This document shows, in pieces, positions 7,714 to 33,022 of a DNA stretch of 54,708 nucleotides. Positions within the stretch are counted from its first letter, which is position 1, and every line of letters begins with the position of its first letter. The notes beneath the pieces were generated by a model. That model was not told the DNA's origin. It did not search any database and was given only the letters and a program-made list of their open reading frames with translations. Source of the DNA: Burkholderiales bacterium (GTDB taxonomy: Bacteria > Pseudomonadota > Gammaproteobacteria > Burkholderiales > Burkholderiaceae_C). The position numbers and the translations under genes were made by a program. The stretch is from contig SXWY01000154.1 in assembly GCA_005789825.1 (NCBI GenBank), positions 1 to 54,708 on the forward strand, read 5' to 3'.

Positions 7714-9834
7714 ATGATCATCAACACCAACATGGATGCCATCAATGCAGCTTTGGCTTATTCGGATGCCACCAGCGCGGCTGCAACAGCCAGCCAACGC
7801 ATCAGTACACAACTTCGGATCAACAGCGCCAAGGACGATCCGGCAGGCCTGGGCATGGCAAACAGACTCAGCGCAAATATTTCATCGTATGCCAAGGCAG
7901 TAGACAACATCAACCAAGGTATTTCAGCGCTCTCCACAGCAGACTCAGCCATGGCGTCTATCCAGACCATTTTGACTTCGATGAAAACTTTGGCGACTTC
8001 TTCTGCATCGGGCACCGCCAGCAGCACCACATTGACCAGTAACCAGTTGGCATTTGCCTCGTATATGTCTCAACTTGATTCTGTAGCGAACACAGCTTAC
8101 TTCAATAATGTTTCATTATTGAATGGCAGTACGCCATCCATCGCCATTCAATCTGGAATTAATCCAGGCGATAAAACAACTTTGACTTTTGGATCATTGC
8201 TGTCGTCTGCACTGGGCTCTGGCAGTTCATTGGCTTTGACCTCTCTGGGCTCGTCAACATCGGCCATGGCATCAGGCGACCTGGTTTTAAACGGCTACAC
8301 CGTTGGCGCATCTTTATCTACTGATGACACCTATTCTTACTCTTTCAATTCCGGCAGTGCTATTGCAAAGGCAGCGGCAATCAATCGCATCACATCCACC
8401 AGCAATATCAAGGCAGAGGTTGGAACGACCCAAGTCGCAGGCAGTGCCATGTCAGCTGCAGGCACGGGAACGGCTGGCACGATCACCATCAATGGCACCG
8501 CCATTTCAATCACATTGGCATCCAGCAGCGATTACGCCACCAACCGCGCCGCCGTCGTAACGGCCATCAATCTCAATTCAGGAACCACTGGCGTCACCGC
8601 CACAGACAACCTTTCCACCAGCAATGGCATATCTCTGAAAGCCGCAGACGGCAGAAATATCACTGTGGCTTTCGACGGCACGAATTTAACAGCCAGCAAC
8701 ACAGGTGTCGCTGCGGCCGGTACTTATGCTGGCACTTACACGCTCCGAAGTTTGAGCCAAAGCAGCATTGTTGTGAGCAGCAATGTAGGCGGTACTTTAG
8801 CCAATGCCGATCTCGGTTTAGGCACATTCAGCAGCAACACCGCCCAGTTCACCAACAAAGCGCGCAGCGGATCCATTGCGGCGCCCACAGCACTTAGCGC
8901 TGGCGATTTGATGATCAACGGATACAACATTGGAGCTGCCTTTACATCCGATGACACGGCTTCCGTTGCCACAACCACATCTTCCACGAAAGCTGCAAGC
9001 GCCATTTCCATGGCAGCGGCCATCAACCGACAAACCTCACTGACCAAAGTGACTGCAACAGTCAACCCAAACGTCGTAGAAGGAACAGGGTTTTCCGCGG
9101 GTGCAGTCGACACCATTTATCTCAATGGCGTGTCGATTGCCGCTTCCTTGTCGACCAGTTCAACGGCTGCAGATGTAGTGAGCCTGCTCAATACATACAC
9201 CGGGCAAACTGGTGTGACAGCGACCAATAATGGAAGTGGTGTGACTTTAACGGCATCGGATGGTAGAAATATCGCAATTGGGGTGAGCAGTGGTGGCGCA
9301 GCAGTAGCTGGCACCCGCATTGGCCTAGGGGGCAATGCTGCCCTGAGCGGCGCAGCGGCCAGTTCTGCCGGGGCCATGACCTATTTGTCCACAGTGAAGC
9401 TCACTTCCACCAATGGAACTTTCAGTATTACTCCCGGTAGCAGCGGTTTAACGAACTTCAGCGCTCTGGGATTCAGAGAGGGAACGTATGGTGGCGGATC
9501 AACTTCCACGAAAGTATCCAGTTTAGATATCTCCACCACGACGGGAGGTACCAATGCCTTGACTACCTTGGCAGATGCAATCAATATGGTGTCACAGTAC
9601 CAAGCCACTGTAGGTGCATTGCAAAATCGCATGTCCTATCAAACCAGCTATGTGAACAACCTCAAAACCACCTCCACCACGGCATACGGGAATATCGTGA
9701 ATTACGATCTGGCAGCCGAAACTGCGGCCCTCGCCACAGCAAAAATCAAGCAAAATGCTTCGATGGCCATGTTGGCTCAGGCCAATATTTCTCAAGACAT
9801 GGTTTCTTATTTGCTGAAACAGTACATCAAATAG
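7714..9834 (+). CDS. Second, divergent flagellin with duplicated variable modules
   Basis: A 706-residue flagellin with recognisable D0/D1 ends: IINTNMDAINAALAY, RINSAKDDPAGLGMANRL, a C-terminal NYDLAAETAALATAKIKQ and an end LLKQYIK. Several canonical residues of FliC are changed, for example no LSTGSK and a lysine-rich tail, so packing may differ from the major subunit. The middle carries two modules (about 189-325 and 399-530) homologous to each other and to those of FliC. It is encoded on the opposite strand from fliC and flaG. No sigma28 promoter with proper spacing is visible, so timing may differ from fliC. It could be a minor, alternative or segment-specific flagellin. Confidence 0.9.
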   Translation: MIINTNMDAINAALAYSDATSAAATASQRISTQLRINSAKDDPAGLGMANRLSANISSYAKAVDNINQGISALSTADSAMASIQTILTSMKTLATSSASGTASSTTLTSNQLAFASYMSQLDSVANTAYFNNVSLLNGSTPSIAIQSGINPGDKTTLTFGSLLSSALGSGSSLALTSLGSSTSAMASGDLVLNGYTVGASLSTDDTYSYSFNSGSAIAKAAAINRITSTSNIKAEVGTTQVAGSAMSAAGTGTAGTITINGTAISITLASSSDYATNRAAVVTAINLNSGTTGVTATDNLSTSNGISLKAADGRNITVAFDGTNLTASNTGVAAAGTYAGTYTLRSLSQSSIVVSSNVGGTLANADLGLGTFSSNTAQFTNKARSGSIAAPTALSAGDLMINGYNIGAAFTSDDTASVATTTSSTKAASAISMAAAINRQTSLTKVTATVNPNVVEGTGFSAGAVDTIYLNGVSIAASLSTSSTAADVVSLLNTYTGQTGVTATNNGSGVTLTASDGRNIAIGVSSGGAAVAGTRIGLGGNAALSGAAASSAGAMTYLSTVKLTSTNGTFSITPGSSGLTNFSALGFREGTYGGGSTSTKVSSLDISTTTGGTNALTTLADAINMVSQYQATVGALQNRMSYQTSYVNNLKTTSTTAYGNIVNYDLAAETAALATAKIKQNASMAMLAQANISQDMVSYLLKQYIK
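8278..9303 (+). repeat. Two diverged modules inside the second flagellin
   Basis: Module 1 (8278-8688) and module 2 (8908-9303) share DLVLNGYTVGASLSTDD vs DLMINGYNIGAAFTSDD, AIAKAAAINRI vs AISMAAAINRQ, TINGT vs YLNGV, TTGVTAT vs QTGVTAT and KAADGRNITV vs TASDGRNIAI. The motif order is the same as in FliC, so the duplication probably predates separation of the two flagellins or has been homogenised between them. Confidence 0.8.
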
Positions 9835-10150: not shown

Positions 10151-12232
10151 TTACTTGTTGGTGTACGTGGCCATCATGCCGTCAAAAGTGGCTTTCAGAC
10201 TGGTCTTTTGGCTGTTGACGCTGCCCACCAAGCTGTCCATGGCAGCGAACTGCTTTTGATAGCGCGCTAACAACGCATCCATTCGCACTTGCAATTTAGC
10301 CAATTGCGCACGGTAGTTGGTGTTTTCTTTGTTGGCGTTTTCGCTCTTGGTCAACAACGGGCCAGTAGCTGAAAGCAGGTTGGTCAACTTCTTGACTGCA
10401 TCACCTGCAATTCCGGCAGGCAGTCCACTGTACACACTCAATTTGTTGTATCCACCGGTGAACATCTTGGCGATGTCGTCAACACCGGTTTGCAGCGCAG
10501 TGTCCAATTTGGTCTCATCCAGTGACAACACCCCCGTTTGGTCCAAACTGAACCCCAACTGGCTCATCGACTGGTAGGTGGTACCTGGCGTGCTGGAAAC
10601 ACCAAAAATCAAAGAGCGCATTTGTTGCCTCACCATGCGAGCTGTGCTGTCGCCCACCAAGGTGGCACCATAGGTTTCCAAAGTGGACTTTGGGTTGGTG
10701 GTTTCTTTGATGATGTTGTCAAAATCGTTGTAAGCCGTGACCAGTGCGGTCAATTTGGCTTTCAGTGAAGAGGTGTCACGGGCCAAGTTGATGCTGGCAG
10801 GTGTGCTGCTCGCGGCCTTGAGGTTCAAGGTCAGGCCTGGAACAATGTCAGATATGGCATTGCTCTGGCGGGTGTAACTGATACCGTCCACAGTGACACT
10901 GGCATCGCTGGCTGCATAGCCACTGGGGGTTACAAAACCCGCGCCAAACACATTGCCCACGTCATCACTCGACACGGTGAAACCTTCTGTCGCTCCATTA
11001 ATGCCAGTGATCATCACCTTATAGGGTGTGCCTGCGCTGCCATCGTTGATCAACTGCGCTTTATAGCCACGGTTAGATGCATTGATCGCCGACACCACGC
11101 CAGCTGGCGTGTCGTCATAGGTTTTTTTGGTCAAACCAATATCTGTGATCACCTTACCAGAGGCAGAACTGACCACCAGACCATTGGTGCTGTCATACGA
11201 CACACTGATGTCTGTGTTGCCATCTAGTGTGCGCAATTGCGTTTGAAGATTGGCAGCCAGTGAAGACATGTTGGCGGTCAAAGGCGCAGGTATGAGTGAA
11301 CGCTGTGTGCCCGCAATGGTCACTGTGAACCCACTGAAATCATTCACCGAAGGGTGGGTGCCAAAACTCGCGCCGGTGATGGTGGTGCTGCCTGCGGTAC
11401 CTGTCAAGGCCCCAGTGTCCAAGTTGAATGTTGCAGATGTTGAAAGTGTTGGGTTATTGACCACGCGAGTGGTGGTTGCCGAAGCGATCTCAAGCTGACT
11501 GCCGTTGTAAGTCACACTCAAATCAGAAGAACCATCCAAAGCCCGCAACTGGGATTGCAAGTTGGATGCCAAATCGCTCATGGTGGCAGTGGTGGGTGCT
11601 GGAGTCAGTGCAAAGGTTTTGCCATCGATATCGACAGAAAAAGTTTTGAAATCACTGACCGACGGAGAGGTGGCAAATGCGGGCCCATTGATAGATGCCA
11701 TGTAAGTGGAGTACGACTGGGAAGTTCCCACGGTGGCGTTGGAACTGCGAGCAATCGTCAAGCCAAAACTGCTACCTGCATTGATGCTGGTCGTGGCAGA
11801 AGCAAATCCAGCACTGATACTGCGTTGGGGTTGTGACAGTGCATTCACCACAATTTGGTGATCACCGACAGAGGCAGCTGCTGTGGCTGTGACACTTAGC
11901 GCAGAAGTGTTGCTGTTATCCAGTGTAAGCGTATTGAAATTATCACGGTCTTTGACAGCGCTGAGAGCTGTTTTGAATTCGTTCATCATGAACATGACAG
12001 CAGACATGCCACTGACCTTGGCATCGTTCTTCGCAATCTTCGCGTTGATCGCGTTTTCTTGCGGCATTTTTTCTGCATTGACCAAGTTTTGCGCCAACGA
12101 GGCCACATCTACCCCGGAGCCTGCACTCAATGAGGTGATGATTTTTTGTGCATTGGCTTTATTGGCCGCTGCCACATCCGCCGCGGTGGAAGCGGCCGTG
12201 GAGGTGCTGGAGCTGACGGGAGTGGTGGCCAT
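10151..12232 (-). CDS. fliD: Flagellar filament cap protein FliD (HAP2), enlarged
   Basis: A 693-residue FliD; many relatives have 450-500. The N-terminal domain includes SLSAGSGVDVASLAQNLVNAEK (about residues 34-55). A flagellin-hook IN-type segment follows later, and the C-terminal coiled region ends with a GSVNSQKTSLKATFDGMM-type stretch. FliD caps the filament and folds incoming flagellin. Two homologous inserts of about 80 residues (182-262 and 287-367) account for much of the extra length. A strong sigma28 promoter lies just upstream, immediately after the flgL stop. Confidence 0.95.
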   Translation of the reverse strand: MATTPVSSSTSTAASTAADVAAANKANAQKIITSLSAGSGVDVASLAQNLVNAEKMPQENAINAKIAKNDAKVSGMSAVMFMMNEFKTALSAVKDRDNFNTLTLDNSNTSALSVTATAAASVGDHQIVVNALSQPQRSISAGFASATTSINAGSSFGLTIARSSNATVGTSQSYSTYMASINGPAFATSPSVSDFKTFSVDIDGKTFALTPAPTTATMSDLASNLQSQLRALDGSSDLSVTYNGSQLEIASATTTRVVNNPTLSTSATFNLDTGALTGTAGSTTITGASFGTHPSVNDFSGFTVTIAGTQRSLIPAPLTANMSSLAANLQTQLRTLDGNTDISVSYDSTNGLVVSSASGKVITDIGLTKKTYDDTPAGVVSAINASNRGYKAQLINDGSAGTPYKVMITGINGATEGFTVSSDDVGNVFGAGFVTPSGYAASDASVTVDGISYTRQSNAISDIVPGLTLNLKAASSTPASINLARDTSSLKAKLTALVTAYNDFDNIIKETTNPKSTLETYGATLVGDSTARMVRQQMRSLIFGVSSTPGTTYQSMSQLGFSLDQTGVLSLDETKLDTALQTGVDDIAKMFTGGYNKLSVYSGLPAGIAGDAVKKLTNLLSATGPLLTKSENANKENTNYRAQLAKLQVRMDALLARYQKQFAAMDSLVGSVNSQKTSLKATFDGMMATYTNK
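11132..11689 (-). repeat. Duplicated module inside fliD
   Basis: Copy A (11447-11689) and copy B (11132-11374) align along their whole length. Examples are PSVSDFKTFSVDIDGK vs PSVNDFSGFTVTIAGT, LTPAPTTATMSDLASNLQ vs LIPAPLTANMSSLAANLQ, and QLRALDGSSDLSVTY vs QLRTLDGNTDISVSY. The level of identity suggests a fairly recent in-frame duplication. Confidence 0.85.
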
Positions 12233-12259
12233 TCGCTTTTTAAGGGTTTATCGTCAGTG

Positions 12260-12286
12260 TGATCGGATTCAACAACAGAAACTTGA
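12260..12286 (-). promoter_or_regulatory. FliA (sigma28) promoter of fliD
   Basis: On the minus strand TCAAGTTT (12286-12279), 11 nt and TCCGATCA (12267-12260) fit sigma28 at 7 and 6 of 8 positions. It sits in the 59-bp gap between the flgL stop and the fliD start, giving fliD late expression independent of the flg operon. Confidence 0.82.
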
Positions 12287-12291
12287 GCCCA

Positions 12292-13221
12292 TCAATTGAT
12301 GTAATTGAAAAGGCTCAATTTCGAAATCTTGGCAAAACTGCTTTGCGCGGCCTCCAGCGCCAGCTGGTCTTTGTTCATTTTGGTGATGGCTTCGGTGTAG
12401 TCCAAATCTTGGATGTCCGACATGGTGGTTTTCAAGCGCAAGGTGATTTCGTCCAGCACATTGTTTTGCGAGTCCACCACGTTCAAATCGGTACCGACTT
12501 GTGCGGTGGCGTCGCTCAAACCTTGCTGCAAGGTATCAATTTCACTGATGCCGCGTTGAATCGCCACGCGGTTGCTGCTCTTGACCGCTTCGATCAAGTC
12601 ACCCATGGCTTGAAAAAAACCGATGCCCACCCGACCGCCTTTGCCGTCGTCACGCACCACATTGGTAAACGCGTCAGAGCCAGGGATGTTTTGGTTCATG
12701 CGACGGTTGTCGCCCACACCGACCACCATGCGGGCTTGGTCGCCTTTGTAAACAATCACCCCTTTGGCATCGGGCGAAAACGGCATTTGGCTCACGCGGC
12801 TACCGGCGAACAAATAATTGCCATTCGAATCCTGCGAATTGGCCAAGCTCAGTATTTGGTTGCGCAATTCGGTCATTTCCAGCGCAATGGTTTTTCTGTC
12901 CGCTGCGCCCAAGGTGTCGTTGGCCGCTTGCACAGACAACTCCTTCATGCGGAACATGACATCGCTGGTGCTGTTCAAGGCGGTTTCTTCGGCTTTGCGC
13001 CTGATTTCAATCGCTTTGATGCTTTCTTGGTAGCTTTTTTGCCGCGCAATCTCAGACTCCAAACGGGTCACCAAGGATGCTTTGTCAGGCTCATCGCTGG
13101 GCTTGGTGATTTGCTTGCCGGTTGACAATTGCTCTTGTGTTTTGGCCAAGTTGCCTTGCACATTGGCCAGCTGTGCGCTGGCCCGGTCAAAAAACATGCT
13201 GGTAGAAACTTTCATGACCAT
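12292..13221 (-). CDS. flgL: Flagellar hook-filament junction protein FlgL (HAP3)
   Basis: A 309-residue protein of normal FlgL length. It starts with flagellin-like KVSTSMFFDRASAQL and LSTGKQITKPSDEP and ends with a helix containing DIQDLDYTEAITKMNKDQLAL, as in FlgL. With FlgK it joins hook to filament. The first ATG is preceded by AAGGAG at 8 nt; a second ATG two codons later is less well spaced. It lies 15 bp after flgK. Unlike its partner axial proteins it is not enlarged. Confidence 0.95.
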   Translation of the reverse strand: MVMKVSTSMFFDRASAQLANVQGNLAKTQEQLSTGKQITKPSDEPDKASLVTRLESEIARQKSYQESIKAIEIRRKAEETALNSTSDVMFRMKELSVQAANDTLGAADRKTIALEMTELRNQILSLANSQDSNGNYLFAGSRVSQMPFSPDAKGVIVYKGDQARMVVGVGDNRRMNQNIPGSDAFTNVVRDDGKGGRVGIGFFQAMGDLIEAVKSSNRVAIQRGISEIDTLQQGLSDATAQVGTDLNVVDSQNNVLDEITLRLKTTMSDIQDLDYTEAITKMNKDQLALEAAQSSFAKISKLSLFNYIN

Positions 13222-13236
13222 GGTGTCATCTCCTTA

Positions 13237-16200
13237 TTAGCGGACTTGCACGATGGCATCAAACAATTGACCAGATATTTGCAGCGCCTTGGCAGCTGCT
13301 TGGTAGGCTTGTTGAAAACGGATCAAGTCCGCTGCTTCGTCATCCAGGTTCACGCCCGACACTTTGTCGCGTGCACTTTGGGCCTGTTCATTCACCACGG
13401 TCAACGCCTGCTGTGTGATCTTGGCCTGTTGGGCGGCATTGCCCACGTTGTTGACTTGGTCGATATAACTTTCGGCCAAGGTTTTGTTGCCGACCACTTT
13501 CTTTTGCGACAAATCGGCCATGACCAACATGTTCTCGTTGTTACCAATGCCGTCATGGTTGCCATCTACCGCAAACACATCGCCCACATCGGGGGCGCGT
13601 GAAAATTTGATCGACAAGCCTTGGTACTCGATCACTGGGTCGAGCACGGTGTTGTCGTAATGGCGATTGACCAATTCGGTACCGGTGGCACCATCGATGA
13701 TCACAAAGCGGTCTGGCTCGATGAACTTGATTTGCAAATTTTGGTCGCGCAACTTGTCTTTGGGATCGATCGGCTCGCCTGAGTAACTGGCCGCGATATC
13801 GGCTTTGCCCTGGCCAGTCACAAAAACCATCAAATCGTCCGGGACTTTGCCTTCCACATAAGCAGCGGTTCTGAAGCCGAGCAAGCTCAGGTCAAACGGG
13901 CTGCCGGTTTGGCGTCGATCGGCGGGTCCGTATTCACCGAAAGACAAGCGGATGTCAGATTTTTCTGGGTCGCCCAAGCGGCGGGTCAGGCGCACCATGC
14001 CGTGGAAAAAATTCGAGCCTTCGCTCAAATTCAGGTTCAAAGCGTTGGCGGGTTTTCCTGCGTCGTCGAAGGGGCCCAGCGCAATCGTTTCACCTTCGTT
14101 GCCTGGGGTGTTTTCCAAAATCAAATCACCGTTGTCTGCCAAACGGGCATTCACGCCCGTGGCTTCGCTTTTCGATTGCAGCGCCTGCACAAACGACAAC
14201 AAGTCTTTGTATTGGGCAGGTACTTTGCCGCCAGTGGGCAATTTGCCAATCACCACGCCATTGATGGTCATTTCTTTGTGAAAGTCCAACGAGGCAGAAG
14301 GAATGCGAATTTCGTTGAACACCTCGGCATATTTCAAATCATTGGCTTTGACCGCAGCGCTCGCCACATGGCTGTCCACCACGGTGCCATTGAAACCGCG
14401 TACCAAGCCGGTCAATACGGTGTTTTTTCCCTCGGCATTGGTGGTTTTTCCGCTGTAATAAATTTGCTCGTCGCCAATTTGAATCACGCCACCCAGGTCC
14501 GAAAAAAGGTCGGCATTTTTCAACTCCAAGGAGTCAGCGCTCGACGCGATGTCGCTGACCAACATGGATTGCTCGGAAGAAAAGAATGGGTGGGCATCAA
14601 TGCCTGCGTTCAACCAATTGGCCACTTGCTGAGGACCAAGTTCTTCACCCGCAGCCAATTTCAATTCGCCCAATGGCTCATCATTGAGTTTGATCGCGCC
14701 TTCGGGAATCACCACCAAATCGGTAGAGGATGAAACCGGCACCACGCGTCCACTGGACAAAGTGGCTGCCGTGGGCGTGGCCTTGTCAGGCTGACCCAGT
14801 TTGTCAAACTGCTGCTCATACAGCACACTGGCCTTGGTGCCATAAAACACTTTCGCACCACGGTAGCCTTTTTCACCAGACTGGTTCAGGTAAGCATCGC
14901 TGTAGGTGAGTTCGGGACTGAAGCCGTTGTCGGCGTTGAGCATCTGGAATTTTTCATCCTCGCTCAAGGGCACGCCAATCAATTGGCGGCCATCGCGGGT
15001 CATCACATGCAACTGTTGACCCGGTTTGACGCTGTCCAAATAAATCGTGGTGTCCGCCATGCCCGCGGCCAAGGTGGTCACAGGCGCGAACAATCGGCCA
15101 CCGCCCACTTCCACTTTCAGCGGGTTGTTGGTGAATGGGTTGTTGGTCAACAACGGATTGCTGATACCAGGCGGCATGGTGCTGGCCAAAAAGCTCACCC
15201 GCGCACGCACATCGCTGGCGTTGTTCGGGTTTTCGGTGACGCGAAACAAACCACCGGTGGTGATGCGCAACGGGTCTTGTAACAACACCCGCACACCTAC
15301 CGCTGCACTGGCGGCCTTGTCATCGATGCGCAGCAAATCCACACCCAGATGGCCATAACCGTCGATGCCCGAGCGTTGGATCAAATTCACTTCGTTGACA
15401 AAACTTTGCGCCAAAAAATCCAGCCCTTTTTGGGCGGGCTCCAGCACCTGGCTGATGAACGTGTTGAGCCCACCCATGGTGCCACCGCTGGCGCCAGACA
15501 AGGGCTCGGTGTTGCCATAAGGGTCGAGCACCAGGTCGAGTTTGCTCAGCGAGTTGGGGTCAAAGCCGATGGGACGTGATTTCAAACCATCGACCACCAA
15601 GCTTTGCTTCATGGTGGTTCCCAGACTGACGGACACAATGCCATTCGGTGTGAAGCTGGTTTTGATGCGTGAGAATTCTGAAATTTGGCGCAACAACAAA
15701 TCGCGGCGGTCGAGCAATTCTGACGACTGGCCTTCCAATGTCGGCGACTTGGTCAGCTGCTGGTTCACCAAGGCCAATTGCTCGGTCAAGGTGTTGATTT
15801 GGTTACCAGCGCTCTCCAAGGCTTGGCGTGTTTCGGTGGACACCAAAGACAATTGCCCTGCCAGTTCAGCAAAGCGTGAACCCACGCCCTCTGACGCACG
15901 GATGAAACTGGTTCGCATCACGGTAGATGCGGGATCCACCGACAAACTGCGCGCTGCATTGAAAAATGTGTCCAAGGCCGAGCTCAAGCCCACGCTTTTG
16001 TCACCCATGATGTCCATCACACGCTGGGTGTAATTCACCAAAGGTTCTTGTGTTGCCAAGTCGGTATTGCTGTTGCGCAAATTCGATTCGGCGAATGTGT
16101 CGAACGCGCGTTTGACCGCCGTGAACAATACCCCAGTGCCCAAATACATATTGGCCTGTTTGGAAGGCGCACTCTGTGTCAATGTCGATTGCTGGCGTGA

Positions 16201-16302
16201 ATACCCTTCGGTGCTGACGTTGGCAATGTTGTTACTGACCGTGCCCAAGGCACGCTGGTAAGCGGCCACGGCGGTACTGCTGATGCCCAGCATATTGCTC
16301 AT
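13237..16302 (-). CDS. flgK: Flagellar hook-associated protein FlgK (HAP1), unusually large
   Basis: A 1021-residue FlgK; familiar homologues have about 550-650. The N-terminal rod-like motif ALGTVSNNIANVSTEGYSRQ (about 19-38) and the C-terminal GVNLDDEAADLIRFQQAYQ followed by AAKALQISGQLFDAIVQV are canonical and form the D0/D1 helices. The extra length is in the central region (about 330-900). It contains segments such as FNEIRIPSASLDFHKEMTIN and a repeated theme of beta-rich text. The start overlaps the flgJ stop by 4 bp (ATGA), indicating coupling. Confidence 0.95.
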   Translation of the reverse strand: MSNMLGISSTAVAAYQRALGTVSNNIANVSTEGYSRQQSTLTQSAPSKQANMYLGTGVLFTAVKRAFDTFAESNLRNSNTDLATQEPLVNYTQRVMDIMGDKSVGLSSALDTFFNAARSLSVDPASTVMRTSFIRASEGVGSRFAELAGQLSLVSTETRQALESAGNQINTLTEQLALVNQQLTKSPTLEGQSSELLDRRDLLLRQISEFSRIKTSFTPNGIVSVSLGTTMKQSLVVDGLKSRPIGFDPNSLSKLDLVLDPYGNTEPLSGASGGTMGGLNTFISQVLEPAQKGLDFLAQSFVNEVNLIQRSGIDGYGHLGVDLLRIDDKAASAAVGVRVLLQDPLRITTGGLFRVTENPNNASDVRARVSFLASTMPPGISNPLLTNNPFTNNPLKVEVGGGRLFAPVTTLAAGMADTTIYLDSVKPGQQLHVMTRDGRQLIGVPLSEDEKFQMLNADNGFSPELTYSDAYLNQSGEKGYRGAKVFYGTKASVLYEQQFDKLGQPDKATPTAATLSSGRVVPVSSSTDLVVIPEGAIKLNDEPLGELKLAAGEELGPQQVANWLNAGIDAHPFFSSEQSMLVSDIASSADSLELKNADLFSDLGGVIQIGDEQIYYSGKTTNAEGKNTVLTGLVRGFNGTVVDSHVASAAVKANDLKYAEVFNEIRIPSASLDFHKEMTINGVVIGKLPTGGKVPAQYKDLLSFVQALQSKSEATGVNARLADNGDLILENTPGNEGETIALGPFDDAGKPANALNLNLSEGSNFFHGMVRLTRRLGDPEKSDIRLSFGEYGPADRRQTGSPFDLSLLGFRTAAYVEGKVPDDLMVFVTGQGKADIAASYSGEPIDPKDKLRDQNLQIKFIEPDRFVIIDGATGTELVNRHYDNTVLDPVIEYQGLSIKFSRAPDVGDVFAVDGNHDGIGNNENMLVMADLSQKKVVGNKTLAESYIDQVNNVGNAAQQAKITQQALTVVNEQAQSARDKVSGVNLDDEAADLIRFQQAYQAAAKALQISGQLFDAIVQVR

Positions 16303-16820
16303 GGCTCATTCCTCGTGGGTGCCAAAGGCATGGTTTTGTGCATCGGCAGTGGCTTCAAGGTCGGGCGTGGCAAGGGCATCGCCGGTTGCTCCACAGGCGT
16401 CAAACTCATGGGCAGCACTGGTTTGTGCAGCGGCATGCCGGGGGCTTGCAAGGCAGCTGTTTTTTGGCGCAGTGCCAGCAGCTCGGCGGTGCTGGTTGCA
16501 GATTCTTGTTGGCTCAATTGCTTGACCACCACATCGGCAAAACCCAAAGCATTGCGCTTGGCCATGGACAAGGACAACTCTTTGTCGTACATGCCTTGGA
16601 AAGTTTCCAAAGCATTGGACTGGAACATATCGCTTTTCAACACATTGTTGGCTTCGCGCATGGACTTGAGCATCATTTGGATAAACAGCGCTTCAAATTG
16701 TTCTGCCGATTCACGCAACGCGCCCTTTTCATTGCGCTGGGCTTTGCCGCGCAATTCGCCCAATGCGCCAAAGTCCGCATAGGACTTGGCAGCGGTGGAG
16801 GGGTTGGTGATGTCAGCCAT
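16299..16820 (-). CDS. flgJ: Rod-cap protein FlgJ without muramidase domain
   Basis: A 173-residue protein equal to the N-terminal half of classical FlgJ. The rod-binding core ESAEQFEALFIQMMLKSMRE and DMFQSNALETFQGMYDKELS spans about residues 37-85, followed by a Pro/Met-rich tail. The C-terminal glucosaminidase domain present in enterobacterial FlgJ (about 313 residues) is absent. In such lineages a separate enzyme opens the peptidoglycan; the LysM/transglycosylase gene at 26292-27431 is the obvious candidate. It lies 10 bp after flgI and overlaps flgK by 4 bp. Confidence 0.93.
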   Translation of the reverse strand: MADITNPSTAAKSYADFGALGELRGKAQRNEKGALRESAEQFEALFIQMMLKSMREANNVLKSDMFQSNALETFQGMYDKELSLSMAKRNALGFADVVVKQLSQQESATSTAELLALRQKTAALQAPGMPLHKPVLPMSLTPVEQPAMPLPRPTLKPLPMHKTMPLAPTRNEP

Positions 16821-16830
16821 GGTCAGTGCA

Positions 16831-17964
16831 TCAAATGATGATCAGCTCAGCGCGCAAACTGCCCGAGCTTTTCAGGGCTTCCAAAATCGCAATCAACGAA
16901 GACGGCGTGGCACCGATTTGGTTAACGGCATCCACGATCTCACGCAGGTCTACGCCAGGCTTGAACAAGAACATCGGGTTTTTGGGTTCGGTCACCGCCA
17001 CATCGGCGTTTTGCACCGGTGTGGTTTGGCCTTGGCCCAAAGCATTCGGTTGCGACACATCGTTGGTGGCGGTGATGGCCACAGAGATCGTGCCGTGCGA
17101 TACCGCTGCCGCTGTCACACGCACTGCGCGGTTGATGACCACGGTGCCGGTGCGAGAGTTGATGACCACGCGTGCATTTGGTTCGGCCGGTGCGACCTCG
17201 ATGTTTTCCAACATGCCCATGAAAGTCACGCGTTGATTCAAGTCTTGGGGGGCTCGTACCGATATCGATGTGCCGTCGATGGCTTGCGCCACGTCACCGC
17301 CAAATTTTGAATTGATCGCGGCAACCATGGCGCTGCTGGTCGAGAAATCGTTGTCACGCAAATTCAAAATCAAGTGTTCAGCTTTTTCAAACGGGGTGTC
17401 AACCATGCGCTCGACGATCGCGCCTGCTGGGATACGCGCAGCGGTGGGCACGCCGATCGCCACTTTGGAGCCTGCGGCACCTGCGTCAATGCCTGTCGCG
17501 GTCAGCGCCCCTTGGGCAAGCGCATAAATTTCACCGTCCACACCGCGCATGGCAGTCATGATCAGGTTGCCGCCACGCAAATTGGTGGCTTTGCCAATGG
17601 CAGAAATATTCACATCGATGCGTTGACCAGGCTTGGCAAAGCCTGGCAAGTCAGCGGTCACCATTACTGCGGCCGCGTTTTTGATGTCGATTCGGCTGGC
17701 CGAAGTGACTTGCTCAAAATCTGACATGGGGCCGTCAATCCGCACGCCCATTTGTGCCAGCATGGCTTTCATGCTTTGCGTGGTGAATGGCACGGACGCA
17801 TCGTCTCCGGTGCCTTGCAATCCGACCACCAAACCAAACCCTATCAATTGGTTGGAGCGTTGTGCCGCCACGGTCGCCAAATCTTTGACCCGGTCGGCCC
17901 ACACTGGCGTGGCCAATGCACACAGCAACACCACACCGCTTGCTTTCAACCACGAATATGTCAT
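16831..17964 (-). CDS. flgI: Flagellar P-ring protein FlgI
   Basis: A 377-residue periplasmic protein with a signal peptide of about 23 residues ending PVWA. The mature start DRVKDLATVAAQRSNQLIGF and the GLVVGLQGTGDD motif are diagnostic for FlgI, and its C-terminal half is equally typical (PNALGQGQTTPVQNADV, VDAVNQIGATPSSLIAILEA). It forms the peptidoglycan-level bushing around the rod. Length is normal. It lies 20 bp after flgH in the flg operon. Confidence 0.96.
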   Translation of the reverse strand: MTYSWLKASGVVLLCALATPVWADRVKDLATVAAQRSNQLIGFGLVVGLQGTGDDASVPFTTQSMKAMLAQMGVRIDGPMSDFEQVTSASRIDIKNAAAVMVTADLPGFAKPGQRIDVNISAIGKATNLRGGNLIMTAMRGVDGEIYALAQGALTATGIDAGAAGSKVAIGVPTAARIPAGAIVERMVDTPFEKAEHLILNLRDNDFSTSSAMVAAINSKFGGDVAQAIDGTSISVRAPQDLNQRVTFMGMLENIEVAPAEPNARVVINSRTGTVVINRAVRVTAAAVSHGTISVAITATNDVSQPNALGQGQTTPVQNADVAVTEPKNPMFLFKPGVDLREIVDAVNQIGATPSSLIAILEALKSSGSLRAELIII

Positions 17965-17984
17965 GTCAGTTCAACCTTAAAAAA

Positions 17985-18668
17985 TCAGAAGGGCCAAAAT
18001 TTCATCAAGGCCGTGGTACCCCAGCCAGGCTTGCTGGCACTCGCCAAGTCACCCGAGCCACGGTAGGCAATTTGTGCGTTCGCCAAGCGCAATGAGTTCA
18101 CAGTGCCATTGGGGCCGACATCGTTGGGGCGAATCACGCCCGAGACTTGAATCACTTCGGTGCCTTCTGACAAGCCCAGTTTTTTCTCGCCGCGCACCAC
18201 CATGTTGCCGTTGGCCAAAATTTCAATCACAGTCACAGTGATGGAACCAGACAAGCTGGCTTTTTGGTCAGCCGTGCCTTTGCCGGTGCTCTTGGTGGTG
18301 GAAGCGTTCAAGTCCACTCCACTGAATGGGCTGGTTGAACCTGCGATGAATTTGCTGATGCCGGCAGGCAACGCTGTGTTGGAAGCGTCTTTGCTGATGT
18401 CTGTGCCTTGGCTGCGTGCGGCTTGGGTGGACTCGTTGAGTATCACGGTGATCAAGTCGCCCACTTGGTAATTGCGGCCTCGGCCAAACCAAGCATCGCT
18501 TTGGCGGTTGCCGTAAATGCCACCCGTGGCGGGTTTGGTTTGGTCTTGCACCAGGGGATACACCGGCGCGAAATCGGGAGAAGAGGTGAGCGCGGGCAAC
18601 ATCGGGTCGGGATGGGCGCAAGCTTGCAACCCAGCGACCACAGCCAATAAGGAAAGGATTTTGTTCAT
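17985..18668 (-). CDS. flgH: Flagellar L-ring lipoprotein FlgH
   Basis: A 227-residue lipoprotein. The lipobox LQAC places the acylated Cys at residue 17. The conserved core includes GSDAWFGRGRNYQVGDLITV-like text, ending in VILNESTQAARSQ, then LSGSITVTVIEILANGNM, LSEGTEVIQVSGVIRPNDV and the C-terminal YRGSGDLASASKPGWGT. It forms the outer-membrane ring of the basal body. Size and order between flgG and flgI are standard. Confidence 0.96.
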   Translation of the reverse strand: MNKILSLLAVVAGLQACAHPDPMLPALTSSPDFAPVYPLVQDQTKPATGGIYGNRQSDAWFGRGRNYQVGDLITVILNESTQAARSQGTDISKDASNTALPAGISKFIAGSTSPFSGVDLNASTTKSTGKGTADQKASLSGSITVTVIEILANGNMVVRGEKKLGLSEGTEVIQVSGVIRPNDVGPNGTVNSLRLANAQIAYRGSGDLASASKPGWGTTALMKFWPF

Positions 18669-18688
18669 GGTGTCAGTGATGTGTTGGG

Positions 18689-19474
18689 TTAGAGGTTTTG
18701 GTTCAGGTACTTCAACATGCCGTCGACCGCTTCGATCGACTTGGAGTTGATTTCGTAGGCGCGTTGGGTCTCAATCATGTTGACCATTTCTTCCACCACG
18801 TTCACATTGGACGCTTCCAATGAGCCTTGGTTCAACACGCCAGCGCCCACGGTGCCCGGTTGCAGCAACTGCACCGGACCGCTGGCGGCGGTGGCAGCCA
18901 GCAGGTTGTTGCCCAAGGGCTTCAAGCCACTCGGGTTGATGAAGGTGGCAATCTGAATCTGGCCGAGCACCTGCTGGCCCTGGCCGCCAACCAATTCCAC
19001 CGAAACGGTGCCATCGCGGCCAATCGTCAAAGAAGATGCGTTGCCGGGAATGGTGATATTGGGCTCCAGAAAAAAGCCGGTCGAGGTGACCAGTTGTCCG
19101 GTTCCCGTCAGTTTGAACGCACCATCGCGGGTGTAGGCGATCGTGCCGTCTTGTTGTTGGATTTGGAAAAAACCGTTACCCATGATGGCGATATCCAGCG
19201 GGTTTTGGCTGTTGATCAAATTGCCCTGGATATGCAGTTTTTCGGTGGCCACCACTTTGGTACCTGTGCCCAGCATCAAGCCGGTGGGTGACTGGGTGTT
19301 GGCCGTGGTTTGTCCGCCTGCTTGGCGAATGTTTTGGTAGAGCAAATCTTCGAATACCGCGCGGTCGCGTTTGAAACCGGTGGTTGAGACGTTGGCCAAG
19401 TTGTTAGAAATGACGTTCATGCGCGTCTGCTGCGCATCCAAGCCGGTCTTGGAAACCCATAAAGCTGCATCCAT
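18689..19474 (-). CDS. flgG: Flagellar distal rod protein FlgG
   Basis: A 261-residue rod protein of typical length. The N-terminal MNVISNNLANVSTTGFKRDR (about 19-38) and the C-terminal LEASNVNVVEEMVNMIETQ followed by RAYEINSKSIEAVDGML are the paired helices of axial proteins. The LMLGTGTKV and GFFQIQQQDG segments are characteristic of FlgG. It builds the distal rod through the P and L rings. It lies between flgF and flgH. Confidence 0.96.
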   Translation of the reverse strand: MDAALWVSKTGLDAQQTRMNVISNNLANVSTTGFKRDRAVFEDLLYQNIRQAGGQTTANTQSPTGLMLGTGTKVVATEKLHIQGNLINSQNPLDIAIMGNGFFQIQQQDGTIAYTRDGAFKLTGTGQLVTSTGFFLEPNITIPGNASSLTIGRDGTVSVELVGGQGQQVLGQIQIATFINPSGLKPLGNNLLAATAASGPVQLLQPGTVGAGVLNQGSLEASNVNVVEEMVNMIETQRAYEINSKSIEAVDGMLKYLNQNL

Positions 19475-19523
19475 CGTCTAACCCCTGTTCTTCAAATATT
19501 CCATCTGTCTGTGTCGACTGGCA

Positions 19524-20291
19524 TCAACCGTTCAACTTCATCATGCTGGCCCCGGCTTGGTCGTTGTCATGGCTGGACTTGACCATGCGCACCTGTTGTT
19601 CAAACATGCGGGCCTGCTCGATCAGTTTGACCATGGCCTCTTGCGGATTGACATTGCTGCCCTCCAAAGCCTGTGAGATTAATGACACCTTCACAGAACC
19701 AGAAGCAAAATCCGAGCCAGACGGTCTGTCATGCACCTTGAACAAGCCGTCTTCGCGCCGCGTCAGCGGGGTTTCGCTGGCATCGCGCAGCATCAAGGTC
19801 GCCACCAATTCGGCGTTTTGCACGCCAGGCTGGGCAGGATTGGTCACATACACGCCGCCGTCGTCGGCAATCGTCACTTTCAAATCTGGCGGCACGGTGA
19901 TCGGCGTGTTGCCATCGCCCAGGACCGGATGGCCATTGCCGGTTTGCAACACTCCGTCGACCGACACCTGCAAATCACCACGGCGGGTGAAACCGATTTC
20001 GCCGTTGGGCGCTTGCACGCCAAGCACGGTGTAGTCGTTCAAATGGATGTCCAAATCGCGCCCGGTGGCGATCAACGGACCGGGCTTCAATTGGATGAAA
20101 TCCATGTGCGCTGCTTGCGGTTGGAAGCTGGAGTCAAACCCTTCGCCACTGGCTTTGAAGGCTTTCATGGACACTTCAAATGAGCGCTTGAAACCGGTGG
20201 TGGTCAAGTTGGCCATTTCATTGGCCAGTACTTGCCGCGCCAAACGCATTTCGGTGATGGCTGCAGAAGAATTAAAGGCTAGGCGTTCCAT
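19524..20291 (-). CDS. flgF: Flagellar proximal rod protein FlgF
   Basis: A 255-residue axial rod protein. It has the N-terminal LANEMANLTTTGFKRSFEV, a GDLQVSVDGVLQTGNGHPVLG segment typical of FlgF, and a C-terminal LEGSNVNPQEAMVKLIEQAR helix. It lies between flgE and flgG in standard order with a gap of about 22 bp. The usual NNxAN motif is altered to NEMAN, which is common in FlgF homologues of this group only by inference. Confidence 0.93.
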   Translation of the reverse strand: MERLAFNSSAAITEMRLARQVLANEMANLTTTGFKRSFEVSMKAFKASGEGFDSSFQPQAAHMDFIQLKPGPLIATGRDLDIHLNDYTVLGVQAPNGEIGFTRRGDLQVSVDGVLQTGNGHPVLGDGNTPITVPPDLKVTIADDGGVYVTNPAQPGVQNAELVATLMLRDASETPLTRREDGLFKVHDRPSGSDFASGSVKVSLISQALEGSNVNPQEAMVKLIEQARMFEQQVRMVKSSHDNDQAGASMMKLNG

Positions 20292-20313
20292 GTCGATTCT
20301 CTAAGGAGGGGCT

Positions 20314-23300
20314 TTACGCCCTGATTTGGATAATGGATTGGGTCATGGTGGTGCTGGTCTCAATCGCCTTGGCATTGGCCTGGAAGTTCCGTTGCTCCGT
20401 GATCAAGTCCACCAGCTCTTGGGTCAAGTCGACGTTGGCGCGTTCTGTCGCACCCGATCGCACTGTTCCGAAACCGGCTGAACCGGCCTCACCGTACTTG
20501 GCAGCACCGGAAGTGGCCGATTTGTAGTAACTGGTGTCACCAATCTGGCGCAAGCCCGTGGGGTTGGAGAAGTTCACCAACACCACCTTGCCCAGCGATT
20601 TCTGCGCACCGTTTGAATAAGAGGCGTTGACCAAGCCATCGTCTCCGATGGACAGGCCCACCAAGTCACCTTCGGGAGCACCGTCTTGCGACTGTGACAA
20701 CACCGCATAAGGCGATGAAAACTGGGTCGACTTGGAATAGTTGATGTTGATGGTCAATGCGCCCTTACCGTCTGGCAAGAACACCGTATCCAGTTGTGAA
20801 CCTTGCTTGGGCGACACCAAGTTACCGGAAGTGTCAAAAGTCAATTCGCCTTTTTCCAAGAAGATCGGTGACCATTCGGGCAGGTTTCTGAAGCCGTCAG
20901 GGCTGAAGGTTTCCCGACCAAATTCATCGATGTACATCGCCACTTCCACCCCGTTGACGGTCTGGGTGTACTGCGTGGGTTTGATCCAGGTAGAGGTGTT
21001 GCCACGGCCACCTTCCACGTTGGCCAAACCCCACTGGCTGTCGCCAGAAACTTTGATAAAGGAATTGGTGGAGGCCGTGCCTGTGGTGAATTTCAAGCTG
21101 TTGTTGGTCTTGTCATATTCCACTTTGACACCAGACACCATGGGCCCCGTCAAACCATTTTGATCAGGAGGACCGGCCAAGCGGTTGATACCGTTTTGCA
21201 AAGCTTGCACAAACGAATCGATGGTGTAGGTTTCTTTCGGTTCCAAATACACCGTGCCCTTGACATCATCCACCGAGACCACAAATTTGTTGTTGGTCAA
21301 GTTGACACTGAAGTTGTTGTTGGCATTGATACCCAAAGGCGAGCCATTCATGACCGCAGGCTGTGAAGCAATACCACGCACCGCCAGCACCGACGGCTTG
21401 ACCTCATAGTCAGCATCCGCTGCCAAGCCAAAACGCTCGGACGCAAAAATATTCGGATTGCTGATTTTGATACTTGAATAGTCTCCGGTGGTGCCTGATT
21501 TGAAAATGAATTTTTCGTTCACCGTGTCGTATTCCACTTTCATGCCATAGCGCTGCAGTTTCAACGGACGGATGTAGTTATTGGTGATCGATGGTGAACC
21601 CGACACGCTGAGCATGTCGCTGCCCGTCTCTTGCGCCAAAGGCGTGGTGATGCCCATTTGGTTGTTCAGGCCCGACAAAGTGATGGTGTTGCCAAGCACA
21701 GGTTCGAAATTGAAGCGCTGCGTCACCGGGTCGTAATCGGCTTTGACCATGTTTTCTGGGGGCAAGGCACTGATGGCGAAGTTCTTACCACCCGCCGACA
21801 CGGTAGACGCGGTGGCCGTGGCTGGGTTGAGTGTGAAACCGGTGAGGTTGGTCAAACCACTGGCATCGATGATTTTCAAATCCTTGCCATTGATCACGGT
21901 CACTGTGATTTTGTTGACCCGATCGGTGTCGTACAAATCGGGGTCTTCGGCATTCAGCGCGGAACGGATTTTTTCCTGGATGCGAATCGCCAAGTCGTTG
22001 ATCGGGGTGCTGGACAAGGTCAGGTCTTCCAAGGCCACATTGGTGAGTGTGGTGCCGTCTTCCAAGCTGAGGTCAAACGAATTGAATTCCGCGCCCGTCG
22101 GGGTGGTGCCCAGTGGGAAGCTGACGTTGGACAAGGTGTACGAACTCGGCGTGATCACATTGCCGTCGTTGTCGGTGACCACATCGACCTGAACCGTGCT
22201 GCCGCCTTTGAGCAAACTGGGGTAGTTGGTAGTGTCAGCAGTCAGTGTCAATTCACTCATGAAATTACCGCTGGGGTCAGTCACTGTGAATGCGTTGGTA
22301 TTGCTGTCCCACGCCACCTCGGTGGTCGCACCTTTGGCAGTGGCCTGCAACAAGGTTTGTATGTCGGTCGCCAACAAATCCATGTGAACGCTGTTGGTGG
22401 GGTCAAACGTGGCGTAACTCGGGATCGGGTCCACACCGGTCAAACTGGGAAAAGATGCTGCGGTCAATGCAATCGTGCTGGTCAATGACCCGGTGGCATC
22501 TTTGGTGGTGAATTTCAAGCTGGAAAAATGGCTCAACAGGGGTTCGGTGTCCACTGGATCGGCACCGAAATCAATACCTGCCAAAGTGATGCTGGATTCA
22601 CCCACAGCCAACAAGGGTGCGGTAGGCAACGGGGTCGTGCCTGTTGTGCGCACGGCCAGAGCGAAGGAGCTGATTTCGTGGCCACCGATGTCACTGACGA
22701 TCAGATTGCCGGGTACGTCCGGGTCTTCTGAAATGCTGACCTGCTCGGCTTCGAATGTGCTCCAACCCTGCTCGATCAACTTGGCCTGTGTTTTGTCTTG
22801 CAATTCTTGTGCAAATACGCTGATATCACTGGGGTCAGAGTCTTCTATGTCCAGGGTGACGGTTTCGCCACCAATATCCAGTGTCATGCTCAGGTAATCG
22901 CCAACTTCGGTTGCGTCCACACCGGTCAACATTCTCTGATTGGTGATGGTATTTTGTGAACCCACGCTGACGCTGCTGAGCGAAAAATTCGAAATCACAC
23001 CGCCATTGGCATCGTTGATACGCACTTCGTTGCCGTTTTGCACATTCACCGTCACTTTGCTGGCTGCGTCTGCGGTGTAGCCCAGCCGCTGCTGCAAATC
23101 GAGTTGGATACGGGTTTGTAATTTGGAGGTCAGGTCTTCCATGGGCTTGGTGCTGAGCGTGGTGCCCAGGTCAATCCGGTTAGACAACACCTTGCCAGCT
23201 ATGGTCAATGTGTAACCTCTGAACTCACCGGGTTCAGGGGTTTCGCTGAAACTCACGTTGGACAGCACATTGCTGCTACCGCTCAACTGGCTGTTGATTT

Positions 23301-24516
23301 TGTCAACCACTTGCTCATAGGTCATGTCATCCGAGTCGAGCTGTATGGTGCGGTTTTGAATCAGCGTGCCGTCTGAATTGGTGGCCGTGATCTGAAAGGT
23401 TTGCTGACCGGCGAAGTTAAAAAACCGCTCGTCACCAAATTTTCGGTTCAACACATTGGTGAATTCTTTGGCAATCTCCGTGCCCGACAGCGCGGGCAAA
23501 TCCAGACCCGCCAAATGGTCCAAACCCACTGAAACCGGCGTACCTGTCCCATCCACATCGATTTCAAACAAATCTTTCAACTGCGAAGGCTGCAAGGTAC
23601 TGAAGTCAATGCCCTCCAAGGTGCTCAGGCGCGGTGCCTTGCCACCGGTCACTGTCGCTGGCTCCGAGCTGCGCAAATCGGTCAATTGGTTGAGCGAAAA
23701 CTTTTGTGTTTTGGCGTTGACCAGCAAGTCTCCCACTTCGCTCTCAGGCTTGAGCTGGCCGTATTTGTTGACATACAAAGGCTCACCGGTGGTGTCTGTG
23801 GCTTGTTGCAACGCAGCTGCCACCAAAGTTTCACCCACATACACATAGGTTTGCCATTTGTTATTCGGGTCTGCCTGGCTCGCATTTTGTGTTTTGGCGT
23901 AATAGACCGTGGCCAAGTAACCGTTACCACCCTTGTCGTATACCGTCAATGCAGTGCTCTTGTTGTAAGAAGCGGGATCGTTGCGGTTGAATGCTTTGGT
24001 CACCACCTGCGCATCGGCTGGAAAGTTCAAGCCCAATTGCACCAGCGAAGTTTCTTTCGCCATGCCGGTGGTTTTTTGTGGAATGGTCAACACGTTCAAG
24101 TCGTTCAAATTGGCTTTACCGGTCGAGTCGACTGACGCTGCCATCAAACGCTGGCCTGCCGAGTTCACCACGTTGTACTGGTCGTTCATCATGAACGAGC
24201 CGTTGCGCGTGAAGATGTCCTGGAATCCGTCGGCCGATTTCAGCGGGAAAAAACCGTCACCAGAAATGGCCAAGTCCAAGGTGTTGGACGAGAAGTTCAT
24301 GTTGCCCTGACCAAACTCTTGCGTCACGCGTTTGAGCGACACACCTTGACCGATGGTCGATGTCGCTTTTTGCAACGGCGATGTCGCAAAAATATCGCCA
24401 AAGTCAGCGCGACTGCGTTTGAAACCCACGGTACTCGCGTTGGCAATGTTGTTCGATGTCACGCCCAATTGCGCGGTGGCCGCATTCAAACCAGTGAGTG
24501 AGGTAAAAAATGACAT
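20314..24516 (-). CDS. flgE: Flagellar hook protein FlgE, giant form
   Basis: A 1400-residue hook protein, about 3.5 times the usual 400. The ends are canonical: N-terminal NAATAQLGVTSNNIANASTV and GFKRSRADFGDIF, then LDLAISGDGFFPL. The C-terminal part has ANVDLTQELVDLITEQRNFQ and AKAIETSTTMTQSIIQIRA. The region from about residue 160 to 1200 is an enormous surface-exposed insert. At least four degenerate copies of a beta-rich module of about 100 residues lie between 418 and 900. A ribosome site GGAG lies 8 nt before the ATG. The reading frame is intact with no stop or shift, so this is a real protein and not a fusion artefact. The hook it builds should be much thicker than the enterobacterial one. 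Confidence 0.94.
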   Translation of the reverse strand: MSFFTSLTGLNAATAQLGVTSNNIANASTVGFKRSRADFGDIFATSPLQKATSTIGQGVSLKRVTQEFGQGNMNFSSNTLDLAISGDGFFPLKSADGFQDIFTRNGSFMMNDQYNVVNSAGQRLMAASVDSTGKANLNDLNVLTIPQKTTGMAKETSLVQLGLNFPADAQVVTKAFNRNDPASYNKSTALTVYDKGGNGYLATVYYAKTQNASQADPNNKWQTYVYVGETLVAAALQQATDTTGEPLYVNKYGQLKPESEVGDLLVNAKTQKFSLNQLTDLRSSEPATVTGGKAPRLSTLEGIDFSTLQPSQLKDLFEIDVDGTGTPVSVGLDHLAGLDLPALSGTEIAKEFTNVLNRKFGDERFFNFAGQQTFQITATNSDGTLIQNRTIQLDSDDMTYEQVVDKINSQLSGSSNVLSNVSFSETPEPGEFRGYTLTIAGKVLSNRIDLGTTLSTKPMEDLTSKLQTRIQLDLQQRLGYTADAASKVTVNVQNGNEVRINDANGGVISNFSLSSVSVGSQNTITNQRMLTGVDATEVGDYLSMTLDIGGETVTLDIEDSDPSDISVFAQELQDKTQAKLIEQGWSTFEAEQVSISEDPDVPGNLIVSDIGGHEISSFALAVRTTGTTPLPTAPLLAVGESSITLAGIDFGADPVDTEPLLSHFSSLKFTTKDATGSLTSTIALTAASFPSLTGVDPIPSYATFDPTNSVHMDLLATDIQTLLQATAKGATTEVAWDSNTNAFTVTDPSGNFMSELTLTADTTNYPSLLKGGSTVQVDVVTDNDGNVITPSSYTLSNVSFPLGTTPTGAEFNSFDLSLEDGTTLTNVALEDLTLSSTPINDLAIRIQEKIRSALNAEDPDLYDTDRVNKITVTVINGKDLKIIDASGLTNLTGFTLNPATATASTVSAGGKNFAISALPPENMVKADYDPVTQRFNFEPVLGNTITLSGLNNQMGITTPLAQETGSDMLSVSGSPSITNNYIRPLKLQRYGMKVEYDTVNEKFIFKSGTTGDYSSIKISNPNIFASERFGLAADADYEVKPSVLAVRGIASQPAVMNGSPLGINANNNFSVNLTNNKFVVSVDDVKGTVYLEPKETYTIDSFVQALQNGINRLAGPPDQNGLTGPMVSGVKVEYDKTNNSLKFTTGTASTNSFIKVSGDSQWGLANVEGGRGNTSTWIKPTQYTQTVNGVEVAMYIDEFGRETFSPDGFRNLPEWSPIFLEKGELTFDTSGNLVSPKQGSQLDTVFLPDGKGALTININYSKSTQFSSPYAVLSQSQDGAPEGDLVGLSIGDDGLVNASYSNGAQKSLGKVVLVNFSNPTGLRQIGDTSYYKSATSGAAKYGEAGSAGFGTVRSGATERANVDLTQELVDLITEQRNFQANAKAIETSTTMTQSIIQIRA
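21817..23265 (-). repeat. Four degenerate modules in the FlgE insert
   Basis: Approximate residues 418-515, 530-622, 643-760 and 796-900 follow one pattern. An opening such as LSNVSF is followed by an FxxYxLxI-type strand, a helix with DLxxxIQxxI (DLTSKLQTRIQ, DLLATDIQTLLQ, DLAIRIQEKIR), a TVxVxNGxxLxIxDxxG strand pair and a closing F-x-L. Copies 1 and 4 agree best. The boundaries were set by eye. Confidence 0.65.
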
Positions 24517-27431: not shown

Positions 27432-27458
27432 TTGGCGCTCAGCAAGTTGAAAATTGGT

Positions 27459-30626: not shown

Positions 30627-30665
30627 GCTGTGTGTCCTTGCCTGCCGAGCAGCGTCGGCCAGTGA

Positions 30666-32479: not shown

Positions 32480-33022
32480 TCAACGGTTGTTGCGTGAAGC
32501 GACTTGCGTCAAATACAGCATGCGCAAATCTTGCACCGCATTGCGGTCCAGCGACAAAGTGGTTTCGTAGGTGTCGTCACCTACCGGTGTGATGCTGACC
32601 AATGTCGCGCCATAAATCACCCCTTCAACGCGTGTGCGGAAAGTGTCGTTCAACACGGTCATGTCGGCCACGGTGGTGGTCGCATCCAATTGCTGTCCAT
32701 ACACCTGTTCGGTCAAGGCGCGGTAAGCATCGAGTTTGGAGGCGCGAATCGCCAGCAAACGCTGTTGCGCTGGGTTCTTGTGGTTTTGTATGCTGATCAC
32801 CGCGTAACCCGTGGCCACCATGGTTTCTTTGCGCTCGAGCATCGGTGTGATCATCGATGCAGGGGACGTCTCAGAAGCCGACTGCATGGTTTTCGCAGCA
32901 GCCGCCGGTGCTGGTGTTGCAACCGTCACCACGGGCGCGGGTGCGGCGGCATAAGGGCGAATGGATTCGCAGGCTGTCAATGAAGCCATCGCAACCAGCG
33001 ACAAAGTCAAACGGTAAAACAT
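32480..33022 (-). CDS. flgP: FlgP-like LPP20-family lipoprotein
   Basis: About 180 residues. The lipobox SLTAC places the lipidated Cys at residue 18. An Ala/Pro-rich linker is followed by the LPP20/FlgP core: ATGYAVISIQNHKNPAQQRL, then AIRASKLDAYRALTEQVYGQ and the late VEGVIYGATLVSITPVGDDT. The ATG at 33022 was chosen because GAGAGGA lies upstream and the signal peptide begins there; the longer frame from 33064 puts unrelated residues before it. FlgP is an outer-membrane flagellar protein in Vibrio and Campylobacter. It heads the minus-strand operon that includes flgT-like. Confidence 0.75.
   Translation of the reverse strand: MFYRLTLSLVAMASLTACESIRPYAAAPAPVVTVATPAPAAAAKTMQSASETSPASMITPMLERKETMVATGYAVISIQNHKNPAQQRLLAIRASKLDAYRALTEQVYGQQLDATTTVADMTVLNDTFRTRVEGVIYGATLVSITPVGDDTYETTLSLDRNAVQDLRMLYLTQVASRNNR

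Follow-up and report, generated by a model that had tools for sequence, protein, structure and literature searches.

It is probable that the oversized hook and junction proteins encoded in the window, the whole 54,708-nucleotide stretch of DNA that was analysed, belong to a foreign flagellum of gammaproteobacterial type, in which the hook protein FlgE and the junction protein FlgK have grown by the insertion of domains, part of them shared with the filament cap FliD. This is the explanation that best accounts for the evidence as a whole. A preliminary description of the same DNA recognised the unusual lengths and missed the gammaproteobacterial type of the system, a giant flagellin encoded outside the window as the third of its genome, and the module family common with FliD.

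Axial proteins of the window

Open reading frames and Pfam domains identify FlgE (1400 aa; 20314..24516, minus strand), FlgK, or HAP1 (1021 aa; 13237..16302, minus strand), FliD (693 aa, with two tandem modules; 10151..12232, minus strand), a flagellin of 707 aa with tandem outer modules (4800..6923, minus strand) and a second flagellin of 706 aa (7714..9834, plus strand). The lengths first given for these proteins are correct, with open frames at the places named; both flagellins lie outside 10151..24516, the interval to which the preliminary description assigned its finding. FlgE matches Flg_bb_rod, the FlgE/F/G D1 domain, FlgE_D2 and Flg_bbr_C; FlgK matches Flg_bb_rod, FlgK_D1 and Flg_bbr_C; FliD matches FliD_N/C and the flagellins Flagellin_N/C. 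The window FlgE passes the cut-off of the subfamily TIGR03506 and is filed as FlgE because of these domains and the flg gene order, its best score against the NCBIfam FlgE equivalog, with matches on both sides of an insert, being 367.8 bits against a cut-off of 400. FlgE_D2 is matched in two separate stretches (residues ~167-289 and ~1214-1279), so the insert, which spans roughly residues 285-1212, sits inside D2, with D0/D1 at the ends of the protein. This arrangement bears out the claim that the extra mass is central and the D0/D1 ends canonical.

The other axial and rod proteins were said to be of ordinary size, which holds for FlgD (234 aa), FlgF (255 aa) and FlgG (261 aa); FlgL (12292..13221, minus strand), at 309 aa, falls below the native Burkholderiales median of 403. 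FlgJ (16299-16820) has 173 aa and consists of the rod-binding domain only. The hook-length control protein FliK (566 aa; 43044..44744, plus strand) carries a Flg_hook domain. A LysM protein lies upstream of flgE (26292-28232), and one stretch of it appears lysozyme-like by eye. A TPR protein (3149-4750), the C-terminal half of which belongs to an unknown family, adjoins a flagellin, as do its relatives in loci L101, L106, L108 and L110.

Distribution of the enlargement

The source organism is of Limnohabitans type, and its assembly is 2.1 Mb in size and 88% complete; named records with relatives comprise Limnohabitans, other Comamonadaceae, unnamed Burkholderiales and a few titles from other groups. 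FlgE was matched in 45 of 61 genomes of the genus and in 21 of the 26 good ones, counts that include matches to FlgF and FlgG. In 22 distinct intact loci, from genus members and MOLA814, start-corrected lengths were 931-1572 aa for FlgE and 929-1518 aa for FlgK, with FlgG at 261-262 and, where present, FlgL at 307-310 and FliD at 488-1032. Across the measured systems of this giant type, a clade described below, the corrected ranges were 794-1572 for FlgE (n=24), 830-1518 for FlgK (n=24) and 303-310 for FlgL (n=23), and FlgF and FlgG were constant in length. The start-corrected medians of native Burkholderiales flagella are 420 for FlgE (n=42) and 647 for FlgK (n=40), both exceeded by the window proteins in the comparison that the preliminary description had called for, and those of other gammaproteobacteria are 414 (n=20) and 633 (n=18). 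The giant-type FlgL thus stays below the median of native FlgL proteins, which reach down to 301 aa.

In the family as a whole, FlgE_D2 was found in 125 of 160 genomes, in frames mostly of 400-550 aa, which are upper bounds since open-frame lengths from genome searches overstate size; FlgK frames were mostly 630-700 aa. FlgE frames above 900 aa occurred outside the genus only in genomes G281 (989) and G306 (1222). Large FlgE and FlgK characterise the genus, along with a small number of its relatives; the family norm is about 400-450 aa for FlgE and about 650 aa for FlgK. Equally long FlgE and FlgK in all close relatives had been named as grounds for giving up the preliminary reading; the enlargement proves to be genus-wide instead of particular to this organism, though not family-wide, so that this ground applies by half.

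Several other long frames were followed. FlgE or FlgK of G228, G235, G220, G300, G264, G350, G178 and G098 became normal in length after start-codon placement, and two long D2 matches, in G171 (1507) and G135 (919), turned out to be FlgK. The frame of 808 in G288 is an uncorrected length. The FlgK of G306 (L125) is seemingly split over two frames, through a break or an assembly error, and in G241 (L137) two FlgE genes, one of 569 aa and the other of 551 aa, lie side by side. G171 is an independent case of enlargement within the native clade, with FlgE of 965, FlgK of 1504 and a flagellin of 1570 aa (L127, L128); the corresponding proteins of G135, from the same genus, have 493, 911 and 520 aa (L129, L130).

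That the giant sizes are products of assembly, frameshift or misplaced start codons is scarcely credible. One genome (G024) has interrupted FlgE matches, and some long control frames did consist of upstream open frame. However, FlgE has 1260, 1280 and 1056 aa in three Limnohabitans sp. strain records not marked as MAGs (L052, L057, L058), and in two single-contig genomes (G057, G049) it has 1269 and 1280 aa; conserved ends and purifying selection likewise contradict an artefact.

Selection on the FlgE insert

The FlgE insert gave dN/dS values of 0.068 against L099, 0.076 against L100 and 0.21 against L101, where synonymous distances above 1 are rough; the D0/D1 regions showed no amino-acid change against L099 at a dS of 0.34. 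FlgE inserts are under purifying selection, that is, they are kept. This bears on the notion of a neutral ratchet, by which a loop that tolerates additions gathers duplicated domains, and these are retained although they confer no benefit. The wide spread of FlgE lengths among congeners (931-1572) and their differing module counts would fit such a process, but the purifying selection and the finding that all 24 measured giant-type FlgEs have at least 794 aa make it fairly unlikely.

A module shared by hook, junction and cap

A recognisable part of the insert is built of a tandemly repeated module of ~100 residues, with a predicted beta-beta-alpha-beta-beta-beta fold, that is common to FlgE, FlgK and FliD. 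The window FlgE insert contains four such modules with confidence and up to six in all, filling much of its length; two of them, at residues ~397-514 (22975..23328, minus strand) and ~772-890 (21847..22203, minus strand), are assigned by homology to the same family as FliD module 1 (11408..11722, minus strand) and module 2 (11108..11407, minus strand). In hhalign comparisons FlgE module M2 scored 99.0 and 98.2% against FliD, and FlgE M2-M5 scored 97.9%, while 182 reversed controls reached a maximum of 7.0%. A profile built from FlgE modules only, run over 6099 ORFs, matched no frames other than 19 of FlgE, 10 of FlgK and 8 distinct ones of FliD. A FliD-only profile matched 10 distinct FliD, 11 FlgK, 6 FlgE and 2 giant flagellin frames, the window's own FlgE being beyond its reach. 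As judged from these profile comparisons, the hook, junction and filament cap have in common a domain family that lacks a Pfam model. Flagellin_IN (PF07196) gave no match to the FlgE and FliD modules up to an E-value of 10, in searches where HMMER filters drop most weak matches; the two window flagellins matched it below its cut-off (0.0022 and 0.061).

In a scan of the class, the module match in each of 12 other genomes was a FliD frame, a preference partly built in, as the profile included FliD rows; within those 12 FliDs the module was found again by a rebuilt profile in five and by the FlgE-only profile in two. Because the scan otherwise placed the module only in FliD, recruitment from cap to hook would be the likeliest direction. 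A tree of the modules needs four changes of host, only one of them forced by well-supported branches. Many congeners have only one to three recognisable FlgE modules, and 7 of 25 giant-type FlgEs have none, which leaves a large share of the insert in these proteins unaccounted for.

The structural model of FlgE was of moderate confidence (pLDDT 65.6). That of FlgK places a flagellin-like domain at residues ~661-766, and a domain common to FlgK and flagellin may exist, a suggestion weaker than that for the module family. A literature search, open-access in the main and by title and opening of the abstract, found no report of a large FlgE in Limnohabitans or of modules shared between FlgE and FliD.

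Ancestry of the flagellar system

Flagella of the gammaproteobacterial polar type are marked by FlhF, FlhG, a sigma-54 activator and FlgP, and by the lack of FlhDC. In the window, a FlgP-like LPP20 lipoprotein (32480..33064, minus strand) was identified by Pfam and by its match to the FlgP chain 8z5n (E 4.2e-15), followed by a sigma-54-dependent activator (33140..34324, plus strand). A putative FliA-type sigma factor (37685..38524, minus strand) has Sigma70_r2, r3 and r4; a MinD-type ATPase (38437..39261, minus strand) is presumably FlhG, from its place beside flhF; and an FlhF-like GTPase (39248..40693, minus strand) matches TIGR03499 below its cut-off. The gene flhA (40727..42829, minus strand; TIGR01398) was used as a marker. 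Beside flgP lie three ORFs of 376, 238 and 357 aa (29496-32475) for which neither Pfam nor NCBIfam gave a confident match; that of 357 aa has none in the PDB either, and that of 376 aa has a weakly FliK-like C-terminus (E 0.016).

The polar-type gene set is matched in the FlhF- and FlhG-like proteins, the activator and FlgP, and FlhC, the part of FlhDC that was looked for, is missing from the source genome at its 88% completeness. FlhC was above cut-off in none of 16 genomes of the genus, with a single sub-threshold match (G018), and in none of G281, G276, G306 and G189, whereas it passed in 16 of the 19 family members that served as native controls, in one of them as a fragment. No flagellar set besides that of the window was found in the source genome (G000), and G000, G057 and G033 each yielded a single FlgE and a single FlgK.

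Trees of FlgD/F/G, the FlgE ends and the N-terminal part of FlgK group the giant-type systems into a single clade, separate from the native flagella of Burkholderiales. Its members are the genus, G281, G276, L059, L060 and G189, together with a second flagellar set of G153. When other gammaproteobacteria were added (those with complete parts among 20 fetched as top FlgE matches to the window), this clade, with support of 1.0, fell among non-Burkholderiales flagella. FlhA identity for the giant type was 70-97% within its own type, 54-58% to other orders and 48-52% to its own family. In an AU test on seven joined parts (2016 columns), the grouping of all Burkholderiales was rejected (p=0.0005). 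These sequence comparisons support an ancestry different from that of the family's native flagellum, and we read the native flagellum as having been replaced by one of gammaproteobacterial type. It would seem quite unlikely that this is instead a fast-evolved native Burkholderiales flagellum drawn towards gammaproteobacteria by long-branch attraction; the AU test on FlhA alone did not reject Burkholderiales as one group (p 0.61) and the stem of the giant type is long (0.60 in one tree, 0.93 in the joined-parts analysis), but the joined-parts result, the absence of FlhC and the presence of FlgP all speak against it. G153, of another family, holds both a native FlgE of 407 and a giant-type FlgE of 936 aa (L133, L134, L163); with 260 contigs, 4% contamination and only a giant-type FlhA found, it may be a mixed bin.

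Filament, glycosylation and co-ordination of lengths

A Flagellin_N search found a flagellin frame above 1000 aa (1078-1793) in 11 of 12 genomes of the genus; the third flagellin of the source genome has 999 aa and is cut by the end of contig C127. The giant flagellin has 1419 aa in the sister species G006, 1331 in G057 and 1330 in G033. With this third flagellin present, the window's flagellins of 706 and 707 aa, themselves under the 1000-aa threshold, are not the organism's largest. Very long ORFs of 2032 aa (L121, 9906-16001) and 1173 aa (L120, 1-3519) lie near the giant flagellin, and both run off their stretch.

The window also encodes PseC, a transaminase of the pseudaminic acid pathway (151..1359, minus strand; TIGR03588 above cut-off), and PseB, a UDP-GlcNAc 4,6-dehydratase (1498..2526, plus strand; TIGR03589 above cut-off). 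The earlier suggestion of a glycosylated surface gains from their position adjoining the flagellins, and in G057 PseC and PseG adjoin the giant flagellin; the placement of these predicted genes supports pseudaminic acid on the flagellum.

The co-ordination of the enlargements, as first proposed, proves loose. FlgE and FlgK lengths were weakly correlated over 22 distinct loci, with a Spearman coefficient of 0.38 (p 0.08) and a Pearson coefficient of 0.52 (p 0.014; kinship ignored), but FliD length followed neither FlgE (rho -0.04) nor FlgK (rho -0.25; n=18, kinship ignored). Outside the giant-type clade, six systems had a FlgE of 600 aa or more, and FlgK reached 800 aa or more in three of these against one of the 51 others (Fisher p 0.003, in a sample partly picked for long frames and with kinship ignored); coupling there is present but partial. 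G281 and G276 (L122, L123) have long FlgE and FlgK yet flagellins of ~283 aa, which suggests that a giant hook does not need a large flagellin. We regard as doubtful the reading of the preliminary description, by which selection in this organism has acted on hook and filament in concert to make them thick and glycosylated: it would be in keeping with the pse genes beside window and giant flagellins, the genus-wide giant flagellins (the organism's own cut at 999 aa) and the low insert dN/dS, but the enlargement is genus-wide and inherited, FliD varies independently, FlgL is short, and the small flagellins of G281 and G276 do not fit.

Proposed course of the enlargement

Under the foreign-flagellum explanation, a gammaproteobacterial-type and probably polar flagellum would stand in for the family's FlhDC-type one. 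In the carrier lineage, FlgE and FlgK would have been enlarged by the insertion of domains between their D0-D2 arms, which are conserved; the core domains would polymerise as usual, assembly through the core would be kept, and each subunit would bear an outward-facing stack of domains. The hook and junction should then be much wider than usual and join a filament that contains the giant flagellin and probably carries pseudaminic acid. Hook proteins form a universal joint, which has to bend. Since the widened hook must still do so, its modules would have to glide over one another; otherwise the hook would be stiffer than usual. That the enlargement is of advantage we infer. A more far-reaching and rather improbable version has self-associating, exchangeable modules forming one continuous outer lattice over hook, junction, cap and giant filament, with a cap domain recruited into the hook and sizes roughly matched as the tiers interlock.

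A freshwater genus with cultured strains and hook proteins of 930-1570 residues makes the load tolerance of the universal joint testable. Modules common to hook, cap and junction show that axial proteins can exchange domains, and if the flagellum is indeed foreign, the motility of Limnohabitans would depend on it.

Comparison with known systems

The repeated modules resemble the outer domains of FliD and Flagellin_IN (PF07196) in being repeated outer domains of axial proteins, although PF07196 itself has no match to them here. The Campylobacter jejuni FlgE, at 865 aa, is called one of the longest hook proteins and, as here, is enlarged by extra domains (PMC5069557); the window FlgE, in contrast, has 1400 aa (relatives up to 1572) and tandem modules homologous to FliD. 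In Bermanella and Oleibacter, giant flagellins arose by tandem duplication and thick filaments were measured, so an axial protein is likewise enlarged by tandem duplication of its outer region; there it is the flagellin that is enlarged, FlgE being named once, in a supplement legend, in the available portion of that work (PMC6248924), whereas here the hook and junction are enlarged too. The Fla1 system of Rhodobacter sphaeroides, with its H-ring components, is said to come from a gammaproteobacterium and so, as here, is a gammaproteobacterial-type system in another host lineage (PMC7277832). R. sphaeroides, however, is alphaproteobacterial and keeps its own second set, unlike the single FlgE and FlgK per genome noted above for G000, G057 and G033.
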